The notes beneath the pieces are model-generated. The model was not told the origin of the DNA. It did no database searches and worked only from the letters and a program-made list of their open reading frames with translations. A stretch of DNA of 64,000 nt, from positions 1-64,000 of the forward strand of contig JAAWGR010000003.1 of assembly GCA_022795445.1 (NCBI GenBank), given 5' to 3'. Shown here one piece after another: positions 14,700-25,963 of the stretch. The first letter of the stretch is position 1, and every line of letters starts with the position of its first letter. The stretch is from Oscillibacter sp. GTDB taxonomy: Bacteria > Bacillota > Clostridia > Oscillospirales > Oscillospiraceae. The position numbers were made by a program, and so were the translations under genes.

Positions 14700-15272
14700 T
14701 TATCCAATCCCTCCGATCCGCTTAAATTCCCGCTGGCCTGTCGAAACATCCGGCCCCGGGAAAATCAGGAATACTGCCCGGCCAATCACATACCGCACAT
14801 CCACCGTTCCCAGGTGAGCATCCCGGCTGTCATTGCTGTGGTTGCGGTTGTCGCCCATGACAAAAATGCTGCCTTCCGGCACCCGCAGGGGGAACTCTGT
14901 GCCGTCGTTTTTGTAGGTCAGTTCATTGATATAACCCTCATGAAGCTGCACGCCGTCTACAAACACCGAACCGCTGGTGAAATCAATATCCACCACCTGG
15001 CCCTCTGTGGCAATAACCCGCTTGACAATCGGTTCTTCCATAAACGATTCCTTCCGCAGGACCACAATGTCTCCCCACTGATATTCGCCGCAGAGCATAG
15101 CATTCAGCACCAGCAGACGATCACCGTGCTGGAGGGTTGGGACCATTGAGTGGCCATCCACGCCGATCAAGCGGATGACAAACGTAAACACAACCACCAC
15201 TGTCAGCATAGAACCAATCAATGTCTGCGTCCACTCATAAAGCTCCCGCCCCTTGCTTTTTTCAGGTTTCAT
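14700..15272 (-). CDS. lepB: Signal peptidase I (copy 1)
   Basis: Membrane-anchored serine protease that removes signal peptides. One N-terminal transmembrane helix (about 15-37) is followed by the catalytic Ser in GHSMVPTL, the catalytic Lys in VKRVIA, and the box-E segment VMGDNRNHSNDSR. 190 residues. It is a tandem paralog of the gene just upstream, which has identical length and order of motifs. The signal peptidase-rbgA-rnhB order is common in low-GC Gram-positives. Confidence 0.95.
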   Translation of the reverse strand: MKPEKSKGRELYEWTQTLIGSMLTVVVVFTFVIRLIGVDGHSMVPTLQHGDRLLVLNAMLCGEYQWGDIVVLRKESFMEEPIVKRVIATEGQVVDIDFTSGSVFVDGVQLHEGYINELTYKNDGTEFPLRVPEGSIFVMGDNRNHSNDSRDAHLGTVDVRYVIGRAVFLIFPGPDVSTGQREFKRIGGIG

Positions 15273-15291: not shown

Positions 15292-15864
15292 TCAATTCAG
15301 CTTTCCAGTACGGCTCCACTCCCGCTGTCCTTTCTCAGCCGTCTCACCCGGCAGCAGCAAAAACACTGCCCGGCCAATCACATACCGCGTATCTACAACA
15401 CCCAGGTCAGGGTCACGGCTGTCGCGGCTGTTGTTGCGGTTGTCGCCCATGATGAACACACAGCCCTCCGGCACTGTCAAGGGAAACTCTGTTCCCTCGG
15501 CCAAATGCGTAGCCTCCCGGATATACGGCTCATTCAAAGGCATACCATCCACATAGACCGCTCCGGCATTAAAATCGATATCCACCGTCTGGCCTTCCGT
15601 AGCAATGACCCGCTTGACAATTGGTTCACCGCTCTCAAAGGCTGGCTTCGCCGCGATGACAATATCGCCTTGGTGGTATGTGCCGCACAGCAAATTGTTT
15701 ACTACCAACAACATATCACCGTTTTGCAGGGTGTTGCGCATAGAGTCGCCTGATACGCCAACCACCCGCACGCCAAATGTAAACAGCAGTACCGCCGTCA
15801 ATACAGAACAAACCAGCGCTTGCACCCATTCATAAAGCCCATTGTTTTTCTTCTCCTCGGCCAA
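15292..15864 (-). CDS. lepB: Signal peptidase I (copy 2)
   Basis: 190-residue type I signal peptidase with an N-terminal membrane helix (about 13-32), catalytic Ser in GDSMRNTL, Lys in VKRVIATEG and the GDNRNNSRDSRD box. About 20 bases before copy 1, same strand. The Ser loop differs (DSMRNTL against HSMVPTL), which may shift substrate choice; that is inference. Confidence 0.95.
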   Translation of the reverse strand: MAEEKKNNGLYEWVQALVCSVLTAVLLFTFGVRVVGVSGDSMRNTLQNGDMLLVVNNLLCGTYHQGDIVIAAKPAFESGEPIVKRVIATEGQTVDIDFNAGAVYVDGMPLNEPYIREATHLAEGTEFPLTVPEGCVFIMGDNRNNSRDSRDPDLGVVDTRYVIGRAVFLLLPGETAEKGQREWSRTGKLN

Positions 15865-16230: not shown

Positions 16231-17928
16231 TTAAGCCTTTGCGCTGTCAAGGGTTTCCCGGTATGTTGTTGCTGCGTCCAACAGTTCCCCAGCGCTCTCC
16301 AACAGGGCCTCTGTAACCTTGGAGCCGCCGGTGATCCGTGCCAGTTCTTCTTTCCGGCGTTCCCGGTCCAGAAGGACAACCTGGGTAAATGTCCGTCCTT
16401 TACGCTCCCCCTTCTCAACAGAAAAATGCGTGTCCGCCATAGCCGCCAGCTGCGGAAGATGGGTGACGCAAAGCACCTGCTTCCGACGGCTCACCTGCGC
16501 CAGCTTTTCTGCAACCTTTTGGGCCGCCCGGCCAGATACGCCCGTATCCACTTCGTCAAACACCAGCGTGCCAATGGCCTCCTGCTCCGCTAGAACATTT
16601 TTTAATGCCAGCATAATCCGCGCCAGCTCGCCGCCAGAAGCGATTTTGGCAATCGGTTTCAGATCCTCTCCTGCATTAGCGGACATCAAAAACCGTACAA
16701 TGTCGCAGCCGTCAGGAGAGGGCTCTTTTTCCGTAAATTCGATCGCAAACCGAACACGGTTCATATCCAAATCCCGCAATTCCTTCTGAATCCGTGCTTC
16801 CAGTTCCTGTGCCGCTTTCCTGCGGGCTTCGGTCAGCTCCTTGCCGACAGTAAGGACTTCTTTTTGCACCTTCTTCAGTTTCTGCTCCAAACGGATCAGC
16901 GTATCATCTGCTGTTTCGATAGCGTCCAGTTCTTTTTGACACTTGTCCAGATAGTCCAACATATCCTGTACGGTTGCGCCGTACTTCTTTTTCAGCCGAT
17001 ACAACTGGTCTGTACGGCTCTCTGCCGCATCCAACTCCTCCGGGGAAAAGTCAAACGAACTCCGCAAATCCCGCACAGTTTCCGCCAGATCGTAAGCTTC
17101 GCTTTGCAATGCGCCTAAACGGTTGTATACATCTAAAACCGCGTCATCCAGCGTCCGGATGCTGGACAGCGCCGCTTCTGCATCTCCCAATTGGCCTACC
17201 GCTCCAACGCTGTCATCATCTCCGTTAAGGCAGTAATCCGCGCCTGTAAGGGCCGTAAGATATTTTTCACCGTTCCGCAAAAGATTTCGGCGGGCCTCCA
17301 GTTCTTCTTCCTCACCCGGCTGCAGTTCCGCCCGCTCCAACTCGTCGATCTGAAACCGTAAGCTGTCCACCCGGCGAGCCTTCTCTGCCTCATCCATTTG
17401 CAGGGCGTTGATCTGGCTCCGCAGCTCCGCCATGGAAGCGTACACCCTTCGGTACGCCTCCAAGGGAGCGTCTGTCCGCCCGAAACGGTCCAAGTAAGCG
17501 CCATGTTGTTCCTCGTCCAAAAGCTGAGTTCCATCGTGCTGGCCGTGTATATTCAGAAGTTCTCCGCCGATTTGCCGCAGCTGGGCTACGGTCAACGGCC
17601 GTCCATTCACCCGGCAGGCGTTTTTTCCATCGCCGGAAATTTCCCGCTGCAACAGCAAATTCCCATCCTCGTCAGGAGCAAAACCATTTTCCGCCAATCC
17701 AGGCAAATCTTCTGGAACGCCGGAAAATTCCGCGCTAACAAAGGCCTTCACCGCACCGGTACGGATCAAATCCCTGGAAGTGCGTCCACCCAAGACGGCG
17801 CCCATAGCGTCGATGACGATGGATTTGCCTGCGCCAGTCTCACCAGTGAGGGCGTTAAAGCCTGGGTGAAATTGGATATCTGCCTCTTCGATGACCGCAA
17901 TATTTTCAATGTGCAGCAATTCCAGCAT
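16231..17928 (-). CDS. recN: DNA repair protein RecN
   Basis: SMC-like ATPase acting early in double-strand break repair. 565 residues: N-terminal MLELLHIENIAVIEEADI and Walker A GETGAGKSI, long coiled-coil arms (about 150-360), the ABC signature region (IASGGELARIMLALK), Walker B (LVFDEVDTGVSG) and the H-loop VTHLPQLAA. The start at 17928 is set by the conserved N-terminus and GGAGAG upstream; the frame is open further up for 50 codons without family similarity. Last gene of the dxs-tlyA-nadK-argR-recN order. Confidence 0.96.
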   Translation of the reverse strand: MLELLHIENIAVIEEADIQFHPGFNALTGETGAGKSIVIDAMGAVLGGRTSRDLIRTGAVKAFVSAEFSGVPEDLPGLAENGFAPDEDGNLLLQREISGDGKNACRVNGRPLTVAQLRQIGGELLNIHGQHDGTQLLDEEQHGAYLDRFGRTDAPLEAYRRVYASMAELRSQINALQMDEAEKARRVDSLRFQIDELERAELQPGEEEELEARRNLLRNGEKYLTALTGADYCLNGDDDSVGAVGQLGDAEAALSSIRTLDDAVLDVYNRLGALQSEAYDLAETVRDLRSSFDFSPEELDAAESRTDQLYRLKKKYGATVQDMLDYLDKCQKELDAIETADDTLIRLEQKLKKVQKEVLTVGKELTEARRKAAQELEARIQKELRDLDMNRVRFAIEFTEKEPSPDGCDIVRFLMSANAGEDLKPIAKIASGGELARIMLALKNVLAEQEAIGTLVFDEVDTGVSGRAAQKVAEKLAQVSRRKQVLCVTHLPQLAAMADTHFSVEKGERKGRTFTQVVLLDRERRKEELARITGGSKVTEALLESAGELLDAATTYRETLDSAKA

Positions 17929-18255
17929 CCCGATCTCTCCTCTCCCCGTCCTGCGGGGAATATTTCGCAAAAAGAATAAATATATCCTATCAACAGAAGC
18001 AAAAATCTTCAAATTACAAAGCGCAAACACGCTATGCCGCAGCCTTCGCAGCAGTATAGTATCAACTACAAAGGGCACCGCAGCAGCGACAGCGGAAATA
18101 AACGCAGCGTCAAATCAGAGTGGTCTTCCCATTTGCAGGAGTAGAAGCCAATCACCATCACCGAACTCAAGCCCCTATAAACCTTCGTCTTTTTTCTTTT
18201 GGAAGAAAAAAGAAAACGGGGAATTCAAATCTGCCAGCCATTGCAAAATGGCGAA
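17929..18255. other. Gene-free stretch between argR and recN
   Basis: 327 bases with no convincing gene on either strand. It contains an AT-rich perfect inverted repeat, TCTTTTTTCTT/AAGAAAAAAGA (18188-18198 and 18203-18213, 4-base loop). No T-run follows the hairpin on the minus strand, so it is not a standard terminator. In many Firmicutes argR and recN are much closer, so this gap is longer than usual. Confidence 0.6.
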
Positions 18256-18705
18256 TCAAAGCATCGCTTTTAGTTCCTCGCAGAAATCGGAGGCAGTTTC
18301 GGTGTCCTTCATCAGCAAAAACGCTGTGTCGTCCCCGGCCAAGGAGCCAACCATATAGGGAAGCTCCATATGATCCAACGCAGAACACGCCGCACTCGCC
18401 AGCCCCGGCATCGTCTTGATTACAACCATGTTTTGGGCACAGGCAATGCTCAAAATGCTCTCACGAAAAATCGTTTGCAGCTTCTCAGCAACATTCAGCT
18501 TCGTCCGGTTGCCGGACACCGCATATTTGTACATTCCCTGACCTACCGGCTCCTTAATCAAATGCAGCTGCTTAATATCCCGGGAAATCGTTGCCTGGGT
18601 ACTGTGGATACCCCGCTCCTGAAGGCGGACAAGAAGCTGTTCCTGCGTCTCAATATTCTCCTGGGCAATAATCTCTAAAATCATAGTTTGACGGTCATTT
18701 TTCAT
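18256..18705 (-). CDS. argR: Arginine repressor ArgR
   Basis: Arginine-sensing transcription regulator. The 149-residue protein has a winged-helix N-terminus with the family signature HSTQATISRDIKQL and a C-terminal oligomerisation/arginine-binding domain containing GDDTAFL. The start at 18705 overlaps the nadK stop as ATGA (4 bases), with GGAAGG upstream. The tlyA-nadK-argR-recN order is conserved across Firmicutes and suggests one transcript. Confidence 0.97.
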   Translation of the reverse strand: MKNDRQTMILEIIAQENIETQEQLLVRLQERGIHSTQATISRDIKQLHLIKEPVGQGMYKYAVSGNRTKLNVAEKLQTIFRESILSIACAQNMVVIKTMPGLASAACSALDHMELPYMVGSLAGDDTAFLLMKDTETASDFCEELKAML

Positions 18706-19580
18706 CCTTCCAGCCCCCCTGGCAGCATTTTTCGGGCAAAAATCTCGCAAAAACTCCGCTCCGACAGGCGCACCAGCCGCGTCACATACTTCGACCGCCG
18801 CACCTGTATCTTGTCATCAGCCCGGAGAGCAAAGGCCCGGCTCTCATCCACAAATAAATATACTGGCTTCCGCCCATTCCGCTCCAGTTCCACCGTCAGC
18901 GTATGTTCCGGCGAAAGGACATACGACGAAAAACGCATGTTGTGGATGCAGATCGGGCAGACAACCATCGTCTGCGCCACCGGCTCTACTACCGGTCCGC
19001 CTGCCGACAAAGAGTAAGCCGTGGAACCTGTAGGCGTGGCAACAATCACGCCATCCCCGGCGATGTCGGCCAGGTGCCGCCCATCCGAAGAAATTTTCAG
19101 ATGGATAACATGCGAGATCGGACCCTCCCGGATGACCGCATCGTTTAATCCCAAATTTGTATAAATCTGCCGTCCGTCCCGGAACACCGACACATCCAGC
19201 ATCATCCTCTGCTCCAGCTCAAAATTCCAATCCTTCAGTTTCCGCAGCGCTCCCAGCTCCCCGGCTTCCAGCTCTGCCACAAACCCGAGGCCGCCCATAT
19301 TTACGCCTAAAACCGGCATCTTATGCAGCGCCGCCAGCTTCGCAAGATGCAAGATCGTACCGTCGCCGCCGAAGGTAATCAGCAAATCCGCCCCCTTCAG
19401 CTCCTGGGGCAAAGGCTGTACGTCATAACCGGCAAAGGCCCCTTCCTTCCGGTCCCGGAAGGGGGAACAAACCACAATCTGAAACCCCAGCTCCCGCAGG
19501 ATGCCCTCCGCTGCGCGGGTTGCTTTCATACCCTGGTCCCGGTTAGGATTGGGACACAGGATAATTTTTTTTGGATTCAT
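18702..19580 (-). CDS. nadK: NAD kinase
   Basis: Makes NADP from NAD and ATP. The 292-residue protein carries the GGDGTILHLAKL nucleotide motif, LGVNMGGLGF, and the GDGVIVATPTGSTAYSLSAGGP block of the family. The stop of tlyA and the start of nadK share one base (TGATG), and argR overlaps its end by 4 bases. Confidence 0.98.
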   Translation of the reverse strand: MNPKKIILCPNPNRDQGMKATRAAEGILRELGFQIVVCSPFRDRKEGAFAGYDVQPLPQELKGADLLITFGGDGTILHLAKLAALHKMPVLGVNMGGLGFVAELEAGELGALRKLKDWNFELEQRMMLDVSVFRDGRQIYTNLGLNDAVIREGPISHVIHLKISSDGRHLADIAGDGVIVATPTGSTAYSLSAGGPVVEPVAQTMVVCPICIHNMRFSSYVLSPEHTLTVELERNGRKPVYLFVDESRAFALRADDKIQVRRSKYVTRLVRLSERSFCEIFARKMLPGGLEG

Positions 19581-20398
19581 CAGGCGTTCTCCTCTCCGTG
19601 TTCCGTCAACATCACATGAGATTCCCGTACCAAAGCTTCCAGCTCAAAGTGTCCAGATTCTCTCTTGCTTTTTTCCAAAAATCCAAGATATTCGATATTC
19701 CCCTCCGGGCCGCGGATTGGCGAATACGTCAGCCCACAAACAGCAAACCCAGCCTCTGCCGTATGGGTTTGGAAGTTCTCTAAAACCTCCAAGTGTACTG
19801 CCGGGTCCCGGACAACGCCCTTCTTCCCGACCTTCTCCCGGCCCGCCTCAAACTGCGGCTTCACCAGCGACACCACATGTCCGCCCTCCCGCAGCAGCGC
19901 TGCCAGAGGCGGCAGGATCAATTTCAAGGATATAAAACTCACGTCTACTGACGCAAAATCCAGCGGTTCCGGAATCTGCTCCCGACTGAGGTACCGGGCG
20001 TTCGTCCGCTCCAAGCAGACCACCCGCGGGTCCGTCCGCAGCTTCCAGGCTAGCTGCCCCCGTCCTACATCCACAGCATACACCTTTGCCGCACCGTTTT
20101 GCAGCATGCAATCTGTAAAACCGCCGGTAGATGCGCCAATATCACCGCAGGTTGTTTCTTTCAGATCAATCGGGAAAACCGTCATAGCCTTCTCCAGCTT
20201 CAAGCCGCCCCGGCTCACGTACCGCAGGCCACCCCGCACTTCGATTTCCGCTTCGGTGGGAACTGCTGTGCCAGGCTTGTCCACCCGGCGGCCAGCTACA
20301 TACACCTGACCGCTCATAATCACTGCTTGGGCCCGCTGGCGGGTTTCTTCCAGGCCCCGCTCTACCAGCAGAACATCCAACCGCATTTTACTGCTCAT
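19580..20398 (-). CDS. tlyA: TlyA family rRNA 2'-O-methyltransferase
   Basis: 272-residue protein with an N-terminal S4 RNA-binding domain (MRLDVLLVERGLEETRQRAQ) and an FtsJ-like SAM-binding methyltransferase domain (CGDIGASTGGFTDCML, AVDVGRGQL). In other bacteria TlyA 2'-O-methylates 16S and 23S rRNA. The start at 20398 has GGAGG 9 bases upstream and overlaps the end of dxs by 11 bases, giving coupled translation. A second Met four codons later is possible. Confidence 0.94.
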   Translation of the reverse strand: MSSKMRLDVLLVERGLEETRQRAQAVIMSGQVYVAGRRVDKPGTAVPTEAEIEVRGGLRYVSRGGLKLEKAMTVFPIDLKETTCGDIGASTGGFTDCMLQNGAAKVYAVDVGRGQLAWKLRTDPRVVCLERTNARYLSREQIPEPLDFASVDVSFISLKLILPPLAALLREGGHVVSLVKPQFEAGREKVGKKGVVRDPAVHLEVLENFQTHTAEAGFAVCGLTYSPIRGPEGNIEYLGFLEKSKRESGHFELEALVRESHVMLTEHGEENA

Positions 20399-22244
20399 GC
20401 ACTTTCGCCTCCCGCACGGCTCCAGCAATACCAGCGGCGTCCAGCTTGAACCGGTGCTCCAGCTGAGACACGCTGCCCTCCGAGGCAAACACGCCGCCCA
20501 GATTTTGTAAAATCAAACGCTTGGGGGAGCATCCCCCCTCCGCCAGCGCCGAAGCTGCCCGCTGACCCACGCATCCCTCGCCAAAGGAATCCTCTATCAC
20601 CAGCAGAAGCTCCGTTTTGCAGAACTCGCACAAAGACGCAGCGTCCAATGGCGCAATCCGGTTCAGCTTGACTACTTCTGCTTCGACGCCCTCTTTTGCC
20701 AACCGTTCCGCCGCTTCTAACGCATGGTTGATCAGCACGCCATAAGTCAGCAGTGTCACATCCCCACCTTCCCGCAGGCGTACCGCCGCTTGTGCCGATG
20801 TGTTCTTCTGAAAAGCGCCCTCGCTTCCCCGCGGATAACGTACCGCTACTGGACCAGAAATCTCAAATAATGCCTGACGCAGCATCTGCCGCAGTTCCGC
20901 AAAATTCGCCGGGCACAACACCGTAAAACCAGGAATTCCCGGCAGAAACAACGAATCGAAACAGCCATGGTGGGTTTCGCCATCAGCACCCACCAGCCCT
21001 GCGCGGTCGACGCCTAACACAACGTGCAGATTCTCCAAAGCAACATCATGGATCAGCATATCATAGCCTCGCTGCAAAAACGTCGAGTATACCGCAAAAA
21101 CTGGGATCATCCCTTGCGCCGCAAGACCCGCCGACATGGAAACGCCATGCCCTTCCGCAATGCCAACATCGAAAAAACGGCCTGGAAAACGCTGCGCAAA
21201 GTCGGTCAAACCAGTGCCGTCCGCCATCGCCGCCGTAATCGCACATATGCGGCTGTCATGCTGTGCACAGTCCGCCAAGGTTTGACCAAACACGCTGGAA
21301 AAACTCTCGCCTGACGGCTTTTTCACAAGCCCTGTCGCCGGATCAAAGGGGCTGACGCCATGGAATTTATCCGGGTTCTTTTCCGCATACGGATACCCCT
21401 TACCCTTGACCGTATTCACATGGACCAATACCGGACAATGCAGCTCCCGCGCCCAGGTCAGCACGTCGCAAAGACGCGGCAGATCATGGCCGTCGATTGG
21501 GCCAAGGTAGGTAAAGCCCATATCCTCGAACAGTGTGCTCCCAGGCCACAGTGTCCGTTTCAGCCAAGTCTTTACACCGTGGTTGAAACGGTAGAGACGT
21601 TTTTTCGCCGGTTCCCGCCCAAATAGGCTCCGGTACCATTTTTTTAAATGATAATAGGCCGGTTTCGACCGCAGCTTTGCCAAATGTCGCGGAATTGCGC
21701 CTACATTACAGTTGATAGACATCCCATTATCGTTTAAGATCACAATGAGAGGTTCACCGGAGGCCCCAGCGTTATTCAAACCCTCGTATGCAAGACCGCC
21801 CGTTAACGCTCCGTCACCAATCAACGCCAGCACGCTGTAATTTTCTTTTTGCAGTGTCCGTGCCCGGGCTATACCCAGGGCCACGGACACCGAGTTGGAT
21901 GCATGGCCTGCAACAAACGCGTCGTGAATGCTCTCCCGAGGCTTTGGAAATCCCGACAAACCGTTGTACTGCCGGAGTTCGCCAAACTGCTCCCGCCGTC
22001 CTGTCAGGATTTTATGCACATAGCATTGGTGGCCCACATCAAAGACAAGCCGATCCTGTTCTGTGTCAAACACCCGGTGAATGGCCACAGTCAGCTCTAC
22101 CGCCCCCAGATTGGAGGCCAGATGCCCACCGGTTTCCGAGACACTTTTCACAAGAAATTCCCGCAGCTCTTCACAGAGCTGGGGAAGCTGGTCCGCAGGC
22201 AGTTTGCGCACGCCCGCAGGGGAATGAATCGTTTCCAGCAGCAT
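20388..22244 (-). CDS. dxs: 1-deoxy-D-xylulose-5-phosphate synthase
   Basis: TPP-dependent first enzyme of the MEP isoprenoid pathway, joining pyruvate and glyceraldehyde 3-phosphate. 618 residues with the LASNLGAVELTVAIHRVFD N-terminal block, the TPP motif GDGALTGG...NDN, the central GTGLTDFAQRFPGRFFDVGIAEGH region and the C-terminal transketolase domain. AGAAGGAGG precedes the ATG. It lies 14 bases behind the OLE-associated membrane protein, as in other OLE RNA loci. Confidence 0.98.
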   Translation of the reverse strand: MLLETIHSPAGVRKLPADQLPQLCEELREFLVKSVSETGGHLASNLGAVELTVAIHRVFDTEQDRLVFDVGHQCYVHKILTGRREQFGELRQYNGLSGFPKPRESIHDAFVAGHASNSVSVALGIARARTLQKENYSVLALIGDGALTGGLAYEGLNNAGASGEPLIVILNDNGMSINCNVGAIPRHLAKLRSKPAYYHLKKWYRSLFGREPAKKRLYRFNHGVKTWLKRTLWPGSTLFEDMGFTYLGPIDGHDLPRLCDVLTWARELHCPVLVHVNTVKGKGYPYAEKNPDKFHGVSPFDPATGLVKKPSGESFSSVFGQTLADCAQHDSRICAITAAMADGTGLTDFAQRFPGRFFDVGIAEGHGVSMSAGLAAQGMIPVFAVYSTFLQRGYDMLIHDVALENLHVVLGVDRAGLVGADGETHHGCFDSLFLPGIPGFTVLCPANFAELRQMLRQALFEISGPVAVRYPRGSEGAFQKNTSAQAAVRLREGGDVTLLTYGVLINHALEAAERLAKEGVEAEVVKLNRIAPLDAASLCEFCKTELLLVIEDSFGEGCVGQRAASALAEGGCSPKRLILQNLGGVFASEGSVSQLEHRFKLDAAGIAGAVREAKVHEQ

Positions 22245-22258
22245 GACCAGCCTCCTTC

Positions 22259-22801
22259 TCAGCGATGGAATATGTGCAGGACTCGCCCGGCACAGTAAAC
22301 CACCTTTGTGCTCCGCTGGATGGCAAAAGCCTTACCCAGAGCTTTACCGCCAATAGTCAAACCAGAGATCAACGCCGTTACGCCAACAGAGAGCAGCACC
22401 GTCCGCAGGTTCAACGCCCGCTGGAGCTGCGTGACAATCACCGCCCCTGTAGCGCCGCTGACTATGCCGCAGATGTCACCCACCACATCATTGCACACGC
22501 TGGACACCCGGCTGGCGTTCCGCAGCAGGAGCAGGGCTTCCTTCGCGCCCTTCTCCTTGTGGGCGGCCATGGCGTGGAAGGGTTTTGCGTCCGCCGATGT
22601 CACCGCCACGCCAATCACATCGAATAGAATGCCAAGGCCGATAAATAGCGCAAGCATCAAAAGAGCGGCCGCCATGCCCGCGCCGTCCAGCATCGATTCC
22701 GAAGCCAGACTCAGCGCGGCCGATAGGGCCACCGCCATAAAAAAGACTGTAAAGGCCCAACGGTATTGGGCGGACGCTCCGTTTTTCTTTTTCTTGCTCA
22801 A
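22259..22801 (-). CDS. oapA: OLE-associated protein OapA (DUF21-like membrane protein)
   Basis: 180-residue integral membrane protein with a basic N-terminus (MSKKKKNG) and about four hydrophobic segments (roughly 15-35, 41-66, 108-128, 132-152). The core FIGLGILFDVIGVAVTSADAKPFHAMAAHKEKGAKEAL followed by NDVVGDICGIVSG is DUF21-like; the latter holds the D-x3-D pair known as conserved in the OLE RNA partner. It sits between a 650-nt structured RNA locus and dxs, exactly the published position of OapA in Firmicutes. OapA dimers bind OLE RNA and anchor it at the membrane. Automated annotation often calls this protein a CorB-like transporter. Function by family and position. Confidence 0.87.
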   Translation of the reverse strand: MSKKKKNGASAQYRWAFTVFFMAVALSAALSLASESMLDGAGMAAALLMLALFIGLGILFDVIGVAVTSADAKPFHAMAAHKEKGAKEALLLLRNASRVSSVCNDVVGDICGIVSGATGAVIVTQLQRALNLRTVLLSVGVTALISGLTIGGKALGKAFAIQRSTKVVYCAGRVLHIFHR

Positions 22802-22863
22802 AGAGAAACCTCCATCGAAATCCTCCGCCCTTTTCCCAGAACGGAAGCCAAAAACAAGGAAAG

Positions 22864-23516
22864 CGCTAAGCAGCGGCGGCAGAAAAAGTAAATCTTACGG
22901 CTTAGGTACGGGCTGGATTTCCCCACAGCGCACCTCTCGTTGCCGATGGAGGCGGTTTCCCTTTCAGCGCTGCGGCGCGGCGTCGCCTGTCCGCGCTGCC
23001 CGACTGCCACTTAGTCCGCACTGCAATCCTTTTTCTGCCCCATTCAGACAGCCTAGGTGATTTCCACCACAGTCTATCCGTTTCTTTAGCCTCTTTTGCA
23101 GAACGGGTTTCAAAGGGCGATCACGGAACCGCCCTGGCCGGGGCGAAGCCGCGTAGTTCCCAAATCCACCCGCCCCACTCAAGGCAGGCTACGGCTGCAC
23201 ACAGCGTTACGGCCCATAAGACCGATGCACCGCATTGCAGGTTCACAATCTGCTTCGTACACGGGCCGGAAATACCACAATGGGAGTACGTCCATGCACA
23301 AGAACAGGTCTCCACGAAAACAGGGTCGGATTGACCATGCCATTGGAAAGCGCCCTGAATCCGCAAGCGCACATTGTGCGCTTCCCCCCAGCACCCACCC
23401 AAAACTGGGCGTATCAAGCAGGCACCATGGGTTTCATCGATGTGCCCTTTAGAGGATTTTTAGGCCCTCCTTAGGAAACGGCAGATCTGACTAGAATACT
23501 GCGCCGCCGCTTAGCA
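22864..23516 (-). ncRNA. ole: OLE RNA (ornate, large, extremophilic RNA)
   Basis: About 650 bases without a gene, upstream of oapA on the same strand. The two ends pair: GCTAAGC then GGCGGC at the 5' end (23515-23509, 23508-23503) match GCCGCC and GCTTAGC at the 3' end (22880-22875, 22871-22865) with one 3-base bulge. An alternative or internal 11-bp stem joins 22878-22888 and 23029-23039, and a hairpin stem AAGCGCA/TGCGCTT lies at 23375-23393. A sigma-A promoter ends 7 bases before the inferred 5' end. OLE RNAs average about 610 nt and occur between ispA/other genes and oapA-dxs in spore-forming Firmicutes. I could not align it to the OLE covariance model, so identity rests on context, length and structure. 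Confidence 0.85.
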
Positions 23517-23522
23517 TTTCTT

Positions 23523-23551
23523 AGTATAGCACAGAATTGATAAATATACAA
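23523..23551 (-). promoter_or_regulatory. Promoter of the OLE RNA operon
   Basis: On the minus strand TTGTAT (23551-23546) and TATACT (23528-23523) are 17 bases apart. The predicted start near 23516 falls on the first base pair of the OLE terminal stem, so transcription start and RNA structure agree. Confidence 0.65.
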
Positions 23552-23570
23552 TATATACCGTATACAAATT

Positions 23571-23602
23571 TTCGGAGTGTGAACGCCGATGTTTCACACT
23601 CC
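23571..23602 (-). terminator. Hairpin after rluB, probable weak terminator
   Basis: Directly behind the rluB stop the minus strand reads CGGAGTGTGAA, a 9-base loop, TTCACACTCCG, then AAAATTTG. The 11-bp stem is strong but the T-run is short, so some readthrough into the OLE operon is possible. Confidence 0.6.
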
Positions 23603-23604
23603 GA

Positions 23605-24321
23605 TCAATTTTCTGCTTTCAATGCCTGGATTTCCGCCGGAAATAAGTACCGCCATTGGCCGCTCCGCAGGCGGCCCAAGGACAGGGTGTGTTCCCTGAC
23701 GCGCCGCAGCCGCGCCACCTCCAGCCCACAGGCGGCGCACATTCGGCGGACCTGCCGGTTTTTGCCCTCGTGGATGGTAATCGAGAGTTTTAACAACGCT
23801 TCCTTCGTTTCCCAGTGCAGAAATTTGACTTGCGCGGGACGGATCGGTTCGCCGTTCAAGTCGGTGACCTGGGCAAGACGCTCCACTGCGTCCTCCACTT
23901 CACCGCGCACCCAGACATGGTAAACCTTGGGCGTTTCATAACGGGGATGCAGCAGGCGTTGGGCAAGATCGCCATCATTCGTCAACAGCAGCAGCCCCTC
24001 GGAATCCAGGTCCAGCCGTCCAACTGGGTAAACCCTTGTCCCACAGTCTTTCACCAAATCTGCAACCGTCCTTCGCCCCTTTTCATCAGAGAGCGTCGTC
24101 ACATAGCCTCGGGGCTTGTTCAACAGAATATAAACTGGCTCTGCCTTTGAAGCCAAGGGCTTGCCGTCCAGACGAACGTCGTCCTGCTCCAGGTCGGCCC
24201 GTTGGCCAAGGAGGGCTGTCTGGCCATTTACGGTCACACGACCAGCGGTAATGTACATTTCCGCCGTCCTCCGAGAACACACCCCTGCTGCCGACAGCAA
24301 TTTTTGCAGCCGTTCCTCCAT
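23605..24321 (-). CDS. rluB: Pseudouridine synthase, RluB/RsuA family
   Basis: rRNA pseudouridine synthase of 238 residues. An N-terminal S4 domain (ERLQKLLSAAGVCSRRTAEMYI) is followed by the catalytic core NKPRGYVTT and VGRLDLDSEGLLLLTNDG with the active-site Asp in GRLD, and the HEGKNRQVRRM motif. The position at the end of the scpA-scpB operon is the common place of rluB in Firmicutes; the exact rRNA target (23S U2605 in the family) is inferred. Confidence 0.92.
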   Translation of the reverse strand: MEERLQKLLSAAGVCSRRTAEMYITAGRVTVNGQTALLGQRADLEQDDVRLDGKPLASKAEPVYILLNKPRGYVTTLSDEKGRRTVADLVKDCGTRVYPVGRLDLDSEGLLLLTNDGDLAQRLLHPRYETPKVYHVWVRGEVEDAVERLAQVTDLNGEPIRPAQVKFLHWETKEALLKLSITIHEGKNRQVRRMCAACGLEVARLRRVREHTLSLGRLRSGQWRYLFPAEIQALKAEN

Positions 24322-25500: not shown

Positions 25501-25914
25501 TTACAGCGTTTCCGCCTCTTTTTTCTTGTCAAAATATTTTTCCACTTTATCCATGATGTCCGGAGCCGTCTCTACAATCCGGTCCACCGTAGACGCCGGA
25601 GGCACGGCCACTGGCAGCACACGCGTAATGCCGTCCTTGATTACCAGAAAGGCCACCGGGTCGATCTTCACGCCCGCTGCGCCGCCGCCGCCAAAACCGT
25701 TTTTCGCCGGCTTGTCAGCCTTGCCGTAATCTGCACCGCCGCTGCCGCCGCCAAAGCCGAAACTCACCTTAGAAATTGGGATCAGCGTCACGCCGTCGGG
25801 GGTGGTGATGGGCTGGCCTACAATCGTGTTGGTGTCTGCCATCTCGCGAATTTTGTCCATAGCCGTGTGCATCAGGCTGCTGACTGTGTTCTTGCTGTCC
25901 ATCGTATTCTCCAT
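25501..25914 (-). CDS. gerW: GerW family sporulation protein (YtfJ)
   Basis: 137-residue soluble spore protein; in Bacillus the homolog is needed for proper germination. The family block TIVGQPITTPDGVTLIPISK, the glycine-rich FGFGGGSGG..GFGGGGAAG linker and the end VKIDPVAFLVIK are present. The start at 25914 is favoured because AGGAAAGGA lies 8 bases before it; an ATG at 25923 is too close to that SD. It lies between the DUF2953 gene and the carboxypeptidase, as in most Firmicutes. Confidence 0.92.
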   Translation of the reverse strand: MENTMDSKNTVSSLMHTAMDKIREMADTNTIVGQPITTPDGVTLIPISKVSFGFGGGSGGADYGKADKPAKNGFGGGGAAGVKIDPVAFLVIKDGITRVLPVAVPPASTVDRIVETAPDIMDKVEKYFDKKKEAETL

Positions 25915-25963
25915 CTTGTACATCCTTTCCTGTGTTTGTATTTTAATTTGTCATTAAAACGTA

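Follow-up and report, generated by a model that had tools for sequence, protein, structure and literature searches.

OLE RNA is known as an abundant transcript of ~600 nucleotides that localizes to the membrane and is linked to stress phenotypes, and to our knowledge it ranks with the largest structured RNAs of bacteria for which no biochemical activity is known. For the RNAs of Halalkalibacterium halodurans and clostridia, published text describes membrane binding, dimerization and a role in stress and Mg2+ balance (PMC12265935). The partner protein OapB is described as having a KOW-type fold, and its companion OapC as binding a kink-turn, k-turn 1a, formed by J4a/5 with J5/6 and the left shoulder of P6 (Lyon et al. 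2022, PMC9723947), whereas a cryo-EM study of 2025 pairs J4a/5 with J6/7 in a different k-turn, 1b (PMC12286853). According to the text of Wencker et al. 2025, both k-turns are possible and mutually exclusive, covariation is found for both, and in-line probing results from H. halodurans speak for k-turn 1a together with bS21 (PMC12054373).

The OLE locus of an Oscillibacter genome

The window analysed here is a stretch of 64,000 nucleotides from an Oscillibacter sp. (GCA_022795445.1, contig JAAWGR010000003.1, positions 1 to 64,000 of the forward strand). A sequence-only reading had proposed that it carries an OLE RNA locus and had suggested a scan of the minus strand with the Rfam OLE covariance model as a check. 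Scanning the whole window (cmscan) returned OLE (RF01071) as the sole match at Rfam gathering thresholds, at 22857..23523 on the minus strand, with 405.2 bits (gathering score 50 bits), an E-value of 1.5e-115 and a match to model positions 1-616 of 616. The expectation that automatic annotation would probably miss the RNA did not hold, as the curated model finds it at once. The gene (ole) is the single OLE in the assembly (3.24 Mb, 151 contigs, rated 92.9% complete). The gene-free stretch before oapA is there as described, although not with the 650 bases given to it: the gap between the oapA start (22801) and the end of the upstream pseudouridine synthase gene (23605) is 803 bases, of which the Rfam match fills 667. 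Strong structure had also been claimed, and the folding of the 667-nt RNA indeed beats 20 of 20 dinucleotide shuffles (z -5.25).

Helices and junctions are numbered here following the text of the published papers, a numbering that we fitted onto the Rfam alignment. The ole sequence contains the loops CUAAAAA, GCCCA, CAAUGGCAUG and GGCC, which were sought as the A-rich L4, the L5/L6 kissing loops and the symmetric L9 (dimer contacts). With its whole-model match and conserved core strands, the window OLE is of the full-length type represented by RF01071, and it exceeds the Rfam consensus by 16 and 17 nt in the presumed P7 and P8 loops. Lineage-specific changes of architecture are also described for OLE variants 1 and 2 of the TANB77 and RF39 clades, which, in the published text, have either a shortened P7-P9 region or no P7 and P8, the OapB site often being absent from variant 1 (PMC11332333). 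Unlike these variants, the window OLE matches the whole model and has gained a helix, at J5/6.

The surroundings resemble those of known OLE loci. All genes named here are on the minus strand. The oapA gene (22259..22801) lies immediately downstream of ole and is followed by dxs (1-deoxy-D-xylulose-5-phosphate synthase, 20388..22244; PF13292, 375 bits), a tlyA-type S4/FtsJ methyltransferase gene (19580..20488; PF01728, PF01479; ORF as listed, its true start maybe further in), nadK (NAD kinase, 18702..19580; PF20143, PF01513), argR (arginine repressor, 18256..18750; PF02863, PF01316) and recN (16231..18078; ORF as listed, PF02463 over 52-558). These Pfam matches bear out the gene order read from the sequence. 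The upstream neighbour of ole encodes a pseudouridine synthase (S4 and PseudoU_synth_2 domains; 23605..24321; PF00849, PF01479). Just past that gene is an inverted repeat, GGAGTGTGAA...TTCACACTCC (23574-23602, minus strand), perhaps its terminator, which a generic terminator scan left unreported. Other genes of the window include two tandem signal peptidase genes (14700-15272 and 15292-15864; PF10502) and, near ole, a gene for the sporulation protein YtfJ (25501-25923; PF09579), which fits published links between OLE and sporulation. With relatives of OapB, OapC and bS21 encoded in the same genome, this is an OLE ribonucleoprotein locus of an already known kind.

The RNA gene is predicted to be transcribed from its own promoter. 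A predicted -35 element, TTGTAT (23546..23551, minus strand), is separated by a 17-nt spacer from a predicted extended -10 element, TGCTATACT (23523..23531, minus strand); both follow a pattern shared with relatives, TTGYAT - 17 nt - TGNTATACT, that recurs upstream of their OLE genes. Among 119 distinct regions upstream of OLE loci, the extended -10 element is found in 81 (5.4 expected from mononucleotide shuffles) and the -35/-10 pair in 62 (0.2 expected likewise), with patterns that were defined post hoc, after inspection of the relatives. The distance from the end of the -10 element to the conserved GCAGUAU is 20 nt in 49 of the 81 cases. Because the predicted -10 element ends at 23523, the 5' end of ole is probably at about 23516, a little inside the boundary that Rfam gives. 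A generic scan for sigma-70 promoters and terminators reported no ole promoter.

Protein partners and their distribution

The oapA gene has a TTG start and encodes a CNNM-like membrane protein of 180 amino acids, assigned by PF01595, alignment and AlphaFold2/Foldseek. The sequence-only description of a DUF21-like protein with a D-x3-D motif agrees with these results, although the PF01595 score of 25 bits is below the cut-off of 28.4. D105 and D109 of the motif are invariant in 23 of 23 aligned rows, and W15, C103-I113 and T149-A154 are among the other positions invariant in all of them; the aspartate pair is presumably the one changed in the PM1 mutant. Archaeal and bacterial CNNM/CorB/CorC chains fill the first six places among the PDB matches of the AlphaFold2 model (mean pLDDT 80.3), with Foldseek probabilities of 0.99-1.00 and TMq values of 0.47-0.59; the best E-value is 0.021, and no PDB match falls below 0.001. 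By prediction, OapA thus shares the membrane fold of CNNM proteins, to which the Mg2+ exporters MpfA/CorB/CorC belong. Unlike MpfA, it consists of the CNNM part only, without a CBS or CorC domain, so that the CNNM, CBS and CorC architecture is not found in it. Of 539 confirmed OapA matches in named genomes, 80 were retained; the first ten of these are 79-87% identical, and seven of the ten are labelled Oscillibacter. NCBIfam names neither OapA nor OapB. One OLE-bearing genome encodes a second OapA-like protein apart from ole (G041:C94:6635-7135).

A search for oapB elsewhere in the genome, proposed with the sequence-only reading, located it on another contig (C95), where a 92-amino-acid protein is encoded between map (M24 peptidase) and infA. 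Its best PDB match is OLE-associated protein B (7k9b, E 5.4e-7); NCBIfam offers no model for it, and Pfam no family above cut-off. The OapC relative, an L7Ae-type protein (G000:C105:64485-64730), is encoded 41 kb from ole, just outside the window, adjoining rpsL (S12) and rpsG (S7); we take adjacency to rpsL as a marker of ybxF (OapC). Its best PDB matches are the YbxF-type proteins 3v7e and 4lck (E 6.5e-7 and 7.2e-7), and it scores above the PF01248 cut-off without reaching the NCBIfam equivalog cut-offs. A bS21 gene is present at C122:17497-17658. The covariance match, the OapA profile, the CNNM-like predicted fold and the OapB and OapC relatives together support the identification of the locus as OLE.

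We surveyed 60 related genomes, including the one of the window, and detected OLE in 45 and OapA in 47, among them all 45 with OLE. In the two genomes with OapA and without OLE (G002 and G020), the contig ends close to OapA, at distances of 150 and 173 bases. OapB is found in 36 of the 45 OLE-bearing genomes (in G034 as a 27-residue piece) and in seven of the 15 OLE-less ones, bS21 in 55 of 60 and L7Ae-family proteins, which include OapC, in 48 of 60. CNNM proteins scoring above 130 bits, which we class as MpfA type on this score, CBS and CorC domains having been checked in the G013 protein only, occur in six of the 45 OLE-bearing genomes versus 11 of the 15 OLE-less ones (Fisher p 3e-5, kinship not corrected for). 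These counts from one order agree with the MpfA-OLE anticorrelation described for Bacillota in published text (PMC11332333). No MpfA was detected in the genome of the window, where OapA is the sole CNNM match; as the assembly is rated 92.9% complete, a missed MpfA is possible. Among the six OLE-bearing relatives with MpfA-type proteins, G013 has the gene right beside ole although the two usually exclude each other: a 409-amino-acid CNNM-CBS-CorC protein is encoded divergently (L204:3487-4716), ~340 bases upstream of ole (L204:2475-3146), and a polyprenyl synthetase gene comes next. In the wider sample, OLE is found in 81 of 245 genomes of the order and 151 of 391 of the class.

An additional hairpin in J5/6

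The sequence-only reading recognized the locus correctly and passed over its unusual part, an extra hairpin in J5/6 (AAGCGCAC-AAU-GUGCGCUU, 23365..23383, minus strand). Aligned to Rfam, the window OLE carries 18 inserted nt between P5 and P6. Together with the preceding base, these make a perfect 8-bp hairpin with a 3-nt loop (19 nt), which is also part of the minimum-free-energy fold of the whole 667-nt RNA.

The segment between P5 and P6 could be cut from 187 of 194 scanned sequences of the order, counting the window and its copy L001 as well as two copies of the G013 sequence; the seven others are L050, L062, L067 and L110, with short upstream flanks, and L078, L096 and L099. Segment lengths are bimodal, at 14-19 nt or 28-140 nt; the value of 19 is the canonical 15 misread. 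Inserts are present in 36 of 37 genomes of family f1, eight of 12 of f10 and all three of f8, and in none of 60 genomes from 13 other families of the order. All 73 named relatives that were cut, which overlap with the genomes just counted, have one too. The distribution over three families suggests that inserts were gained at least three times. Outside the order, we took 130 of the 148 OLE-bearing genomes of the class, read all 130 over two scripts and found no insert, the J5/6 strand being short and mostly (G)UUAAGG or GUAAGG. The distance from J4a/5 to the P6 loop is 68-71 nt in 127 of these RNAs, and the other three (L316, L336 and L337) are short by J5/6 extraction; readings of 20-26 nt for J5/6 outside the order are an anchor effect and do not represent inserts.

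Judged by its pairing in aligned segments, the hairpin covaries across relatives. Pairs 1-4 are standard in all 78 distinct f1-type segments, with exchanges of A-U to G-C at pair 2 and of C-G to U-A at pair 4, in a register fitted row by row (72 segments at one offset, six at the next). Under one fixed register, 98.1% of the cells in the eight pairs are standard in the 46 segments of the AAG...CUU type; sliding by 1-3 leaves at most 54.6%, and none of 1000 shuffles reaches 98.1%. In 27 other segments, a fixed 8-pair register gives 74.1% standard cells versus at most 51.4% when slid.

Some inserts are much longer. Four genomes of the genus (G003, G026, G019 and G009; L198-L201) share a related insert of 116-117 nt, in a single copy per genome. 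We considered a mobile element and rejected it, as each of the four genomes has a single match and the genome of the window has none; in G025, the match is confined to the flanking OLE core. The OLE of G025 (L203) has a 126-nt insert of other sequence and reaches only 157 bits, and may be divergent, decaying or misassembled. Seven f10 RNAs (L168-L171 and L173-L175) have a hairpin of 29-30 nt with the same CCUCAA loop in all seven, which resembles a possible binding or docking site. The OLE literature contains, in its running text, no mention of inserts in J5/6 that we could find, although figures or supplements may hold an earlier notice: the text of the mSphere paper on OLE has no insertion, expansion or hairpin, and the RNA Biology paper uses insertion only in a methods passage and the strain list. 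A literature search found no paper joining OLE RNA and Oscillibacter. As far as could be seen, the hairpin is new to OLE.

Changes in the J4a/5 loop tend to accompany the inserts. The loop is GAU in all 56 distinct insert-free RNAs of the order and differs from GAU in 39 of 93 distinct insert-bearing ones (two more are unreadable), with the window among those that keep it. In f10, all eight insert-bearing RNAs have UGU and all four insert-free ones GAU; the insert-bearing RNAs of f8 keep GAU, and f1 shows both states. Outside the order, five of the 130 insert-free RNAs depart from GAU (UGU in L337; GUU in L335, L338, L339 and L340), in genomes of 1.2-2.0 Mb, so that the linkage is not a strict one. 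On a tree of 142 RNAs, built from the sequence downstream of the P6 loop only and excluding duplicates and 22 rows without a recognized 3' end, the inserts need at least five changes, best read as gains in f1, f8 and f10 (once or twice there) plus a single loss (or misplacement) at L147. For the loop the minimum is nine changes, none of them in the 46 insert-free rows. Insert-bearing branches make up 41% of the tree length, and nine changes proportional to length would all fall on them with a chance of ~0.0003, a rough estimate. An independent-pairs test has three supported pairs (two agree, none opposes, one is equal), too few to reach significance.

The OapC site and competing readings of the insert

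The strand common to both published k-turns, CACAUCGAUGA in J4a/5, was read off the sequence at 23434..23444 (minus strand) and is conserved in relatives. At the sequence level, the window keeps both strands of k-turn 1b: the J4a/5 strand, with its conserved C and GA, and its J6/7 partner GUGGAGA (23309..23315, minus strand). In contrast, the J5/6 strand of k-turn 1a (UUAAGG type) is broken, the hairpin replacing UUAA and being followed by GCGG. The GG that opens P6 does remain after the hairpin in most f1-type rows, which still allows k-turn 1a to be drawn in part. The 3' end of J6/7 is GAGA in all 95 distinct insert-bearing RNAs; in 54 insert-free rows of the order the same positions have G in 54, A in 46, G in 51 and A in 38, so that three of the four vary. 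Because the search for this strand used resemblance to GUGGAGA, it is biased towards such matches in insert-bearing and insert-free RNAs alike. We discarded J4a/5 position 84 as covariation evidence for either k-turn, because its variation among insert-bearing RNAs is matched neither in J6/7 nor in the bases that follow the hairpin.

The hairpin, common to the bacterial family, likely removes one of the two proposed OapC-binding shapes, and we infer from the retained strands that insert-bearing organisms use k-turn 1b only. A broader proposal is that J5/6 is an expansion-segment site, where at least three gains of a helix within the order, of up to 126 nt, destroyed k-turn 1a, freed the J4a/5 loop to change and locked these RNAs in k-turn 1b; on this proposal we are evenly divided. 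It is also possible, if rather doubtful, that the hairpin is a neutral lineage-specific outgrowth and that OapC binds a modified k-turn 1a, with the hairpin stacked on P5 and the GG paired with the conserved C of J4a/5. That C is kept in all 93 distinct insert-bearing rows in which the strand was found, the GG follows the hairpin in 93 of 108 f1-type rows, GAU is retained in 54 of the 93 insert-bearing RNAs, and the inserts vary freely in length and sequence past their first pairs, all of which would suit such an outgrowth. However, the bases right before the GG, on which the sheared pairs depend, are missing, and J4a/5 loop changes accompany the inserts in f1 and f10 while GAGA in J6/7 stays fixed. 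Alternatively, J5/6 could be where a further lineage-specific partner docks, the inserts of up to 126 nt being functional expansion segments comparable to those in ribosomal RNA. We regard this as unlikely: gains in three families, the near-constant presence in f1, the structured 116-117-nt form at one copy in each of its four genomes and the invariant CCUCAA loop of the long f10 inserts point to it, but no partner is known and the loops of Oscillibacter are short and unconserved.

Another reading concerns the RNA as a whole, which might be a cis-acting leader regulating oapA instead of a trans-acting RNA. In the window the arrangement fits a leader, ole ending 55 bases short of the oapA start on the same strand. 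Relatives argue against this. In three genomes (G654-G656), whose oapA loci L078, L096 and L099 were examined as cases of OapA without OLE and rejected as such, the RNA (L341-L343) turned up further upstream, at a distance of 2.4 to about 5 kb, and OLE therefore need not be an oapA leader; in L078 the two genes are separated by a 781-codon ORF with no Pfam match, located just before oapA. In G037, OLE (C53:9830-10464) and OapA (C30:24954-25466) seem unlinked, because they are on separate contigs and the 9.8 kb downstream of OLE do not contain oapA. G025 was dropped as a further such case, its OLE ending at a contig end. Together with the trans binding and membrane recruitment described in published text (PMC12265935), these arrangements make the leader reading highly improbable.

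We therefore consider it quite probable that the window encodes an OLE RNA upstream of oapA that has its own promoter, joins its partners in a membrane particle and offers OapC k-turn 1b only. The RNA would start from its predicted promoter, directly upstream of oapA, and likely assemble with OapA and the relatives of OapB, OapC and bS21 into a particle at the membrane that would aid stress endurance and Mg2+ balance in a genome where no MpfA exporter was detected. For its transcription, assembly, membrane binding and stress role, we infer what is described for Halalkalibacterium halodurans (PMC11332333, PMC12265935). Because the hairpin would remove the strand required by k-turn 1a, OapC would bind here only through J4a/5 with J6/7, and the switch between P6 and k-turn 1a proposed for H. 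halodurans would not operate.

The two published structures of the OapC site, one from biochemistry and the other from cryo-EM, are described as mutually exclusive (PMC12054373), and a helix within the strand of one of them makes the question testable. If the reading is true, the insert-bearing RNAs would be a natural experiment deciding between the two sites, and the proposed P6/k-turn switch would be dispensable for OLE function.
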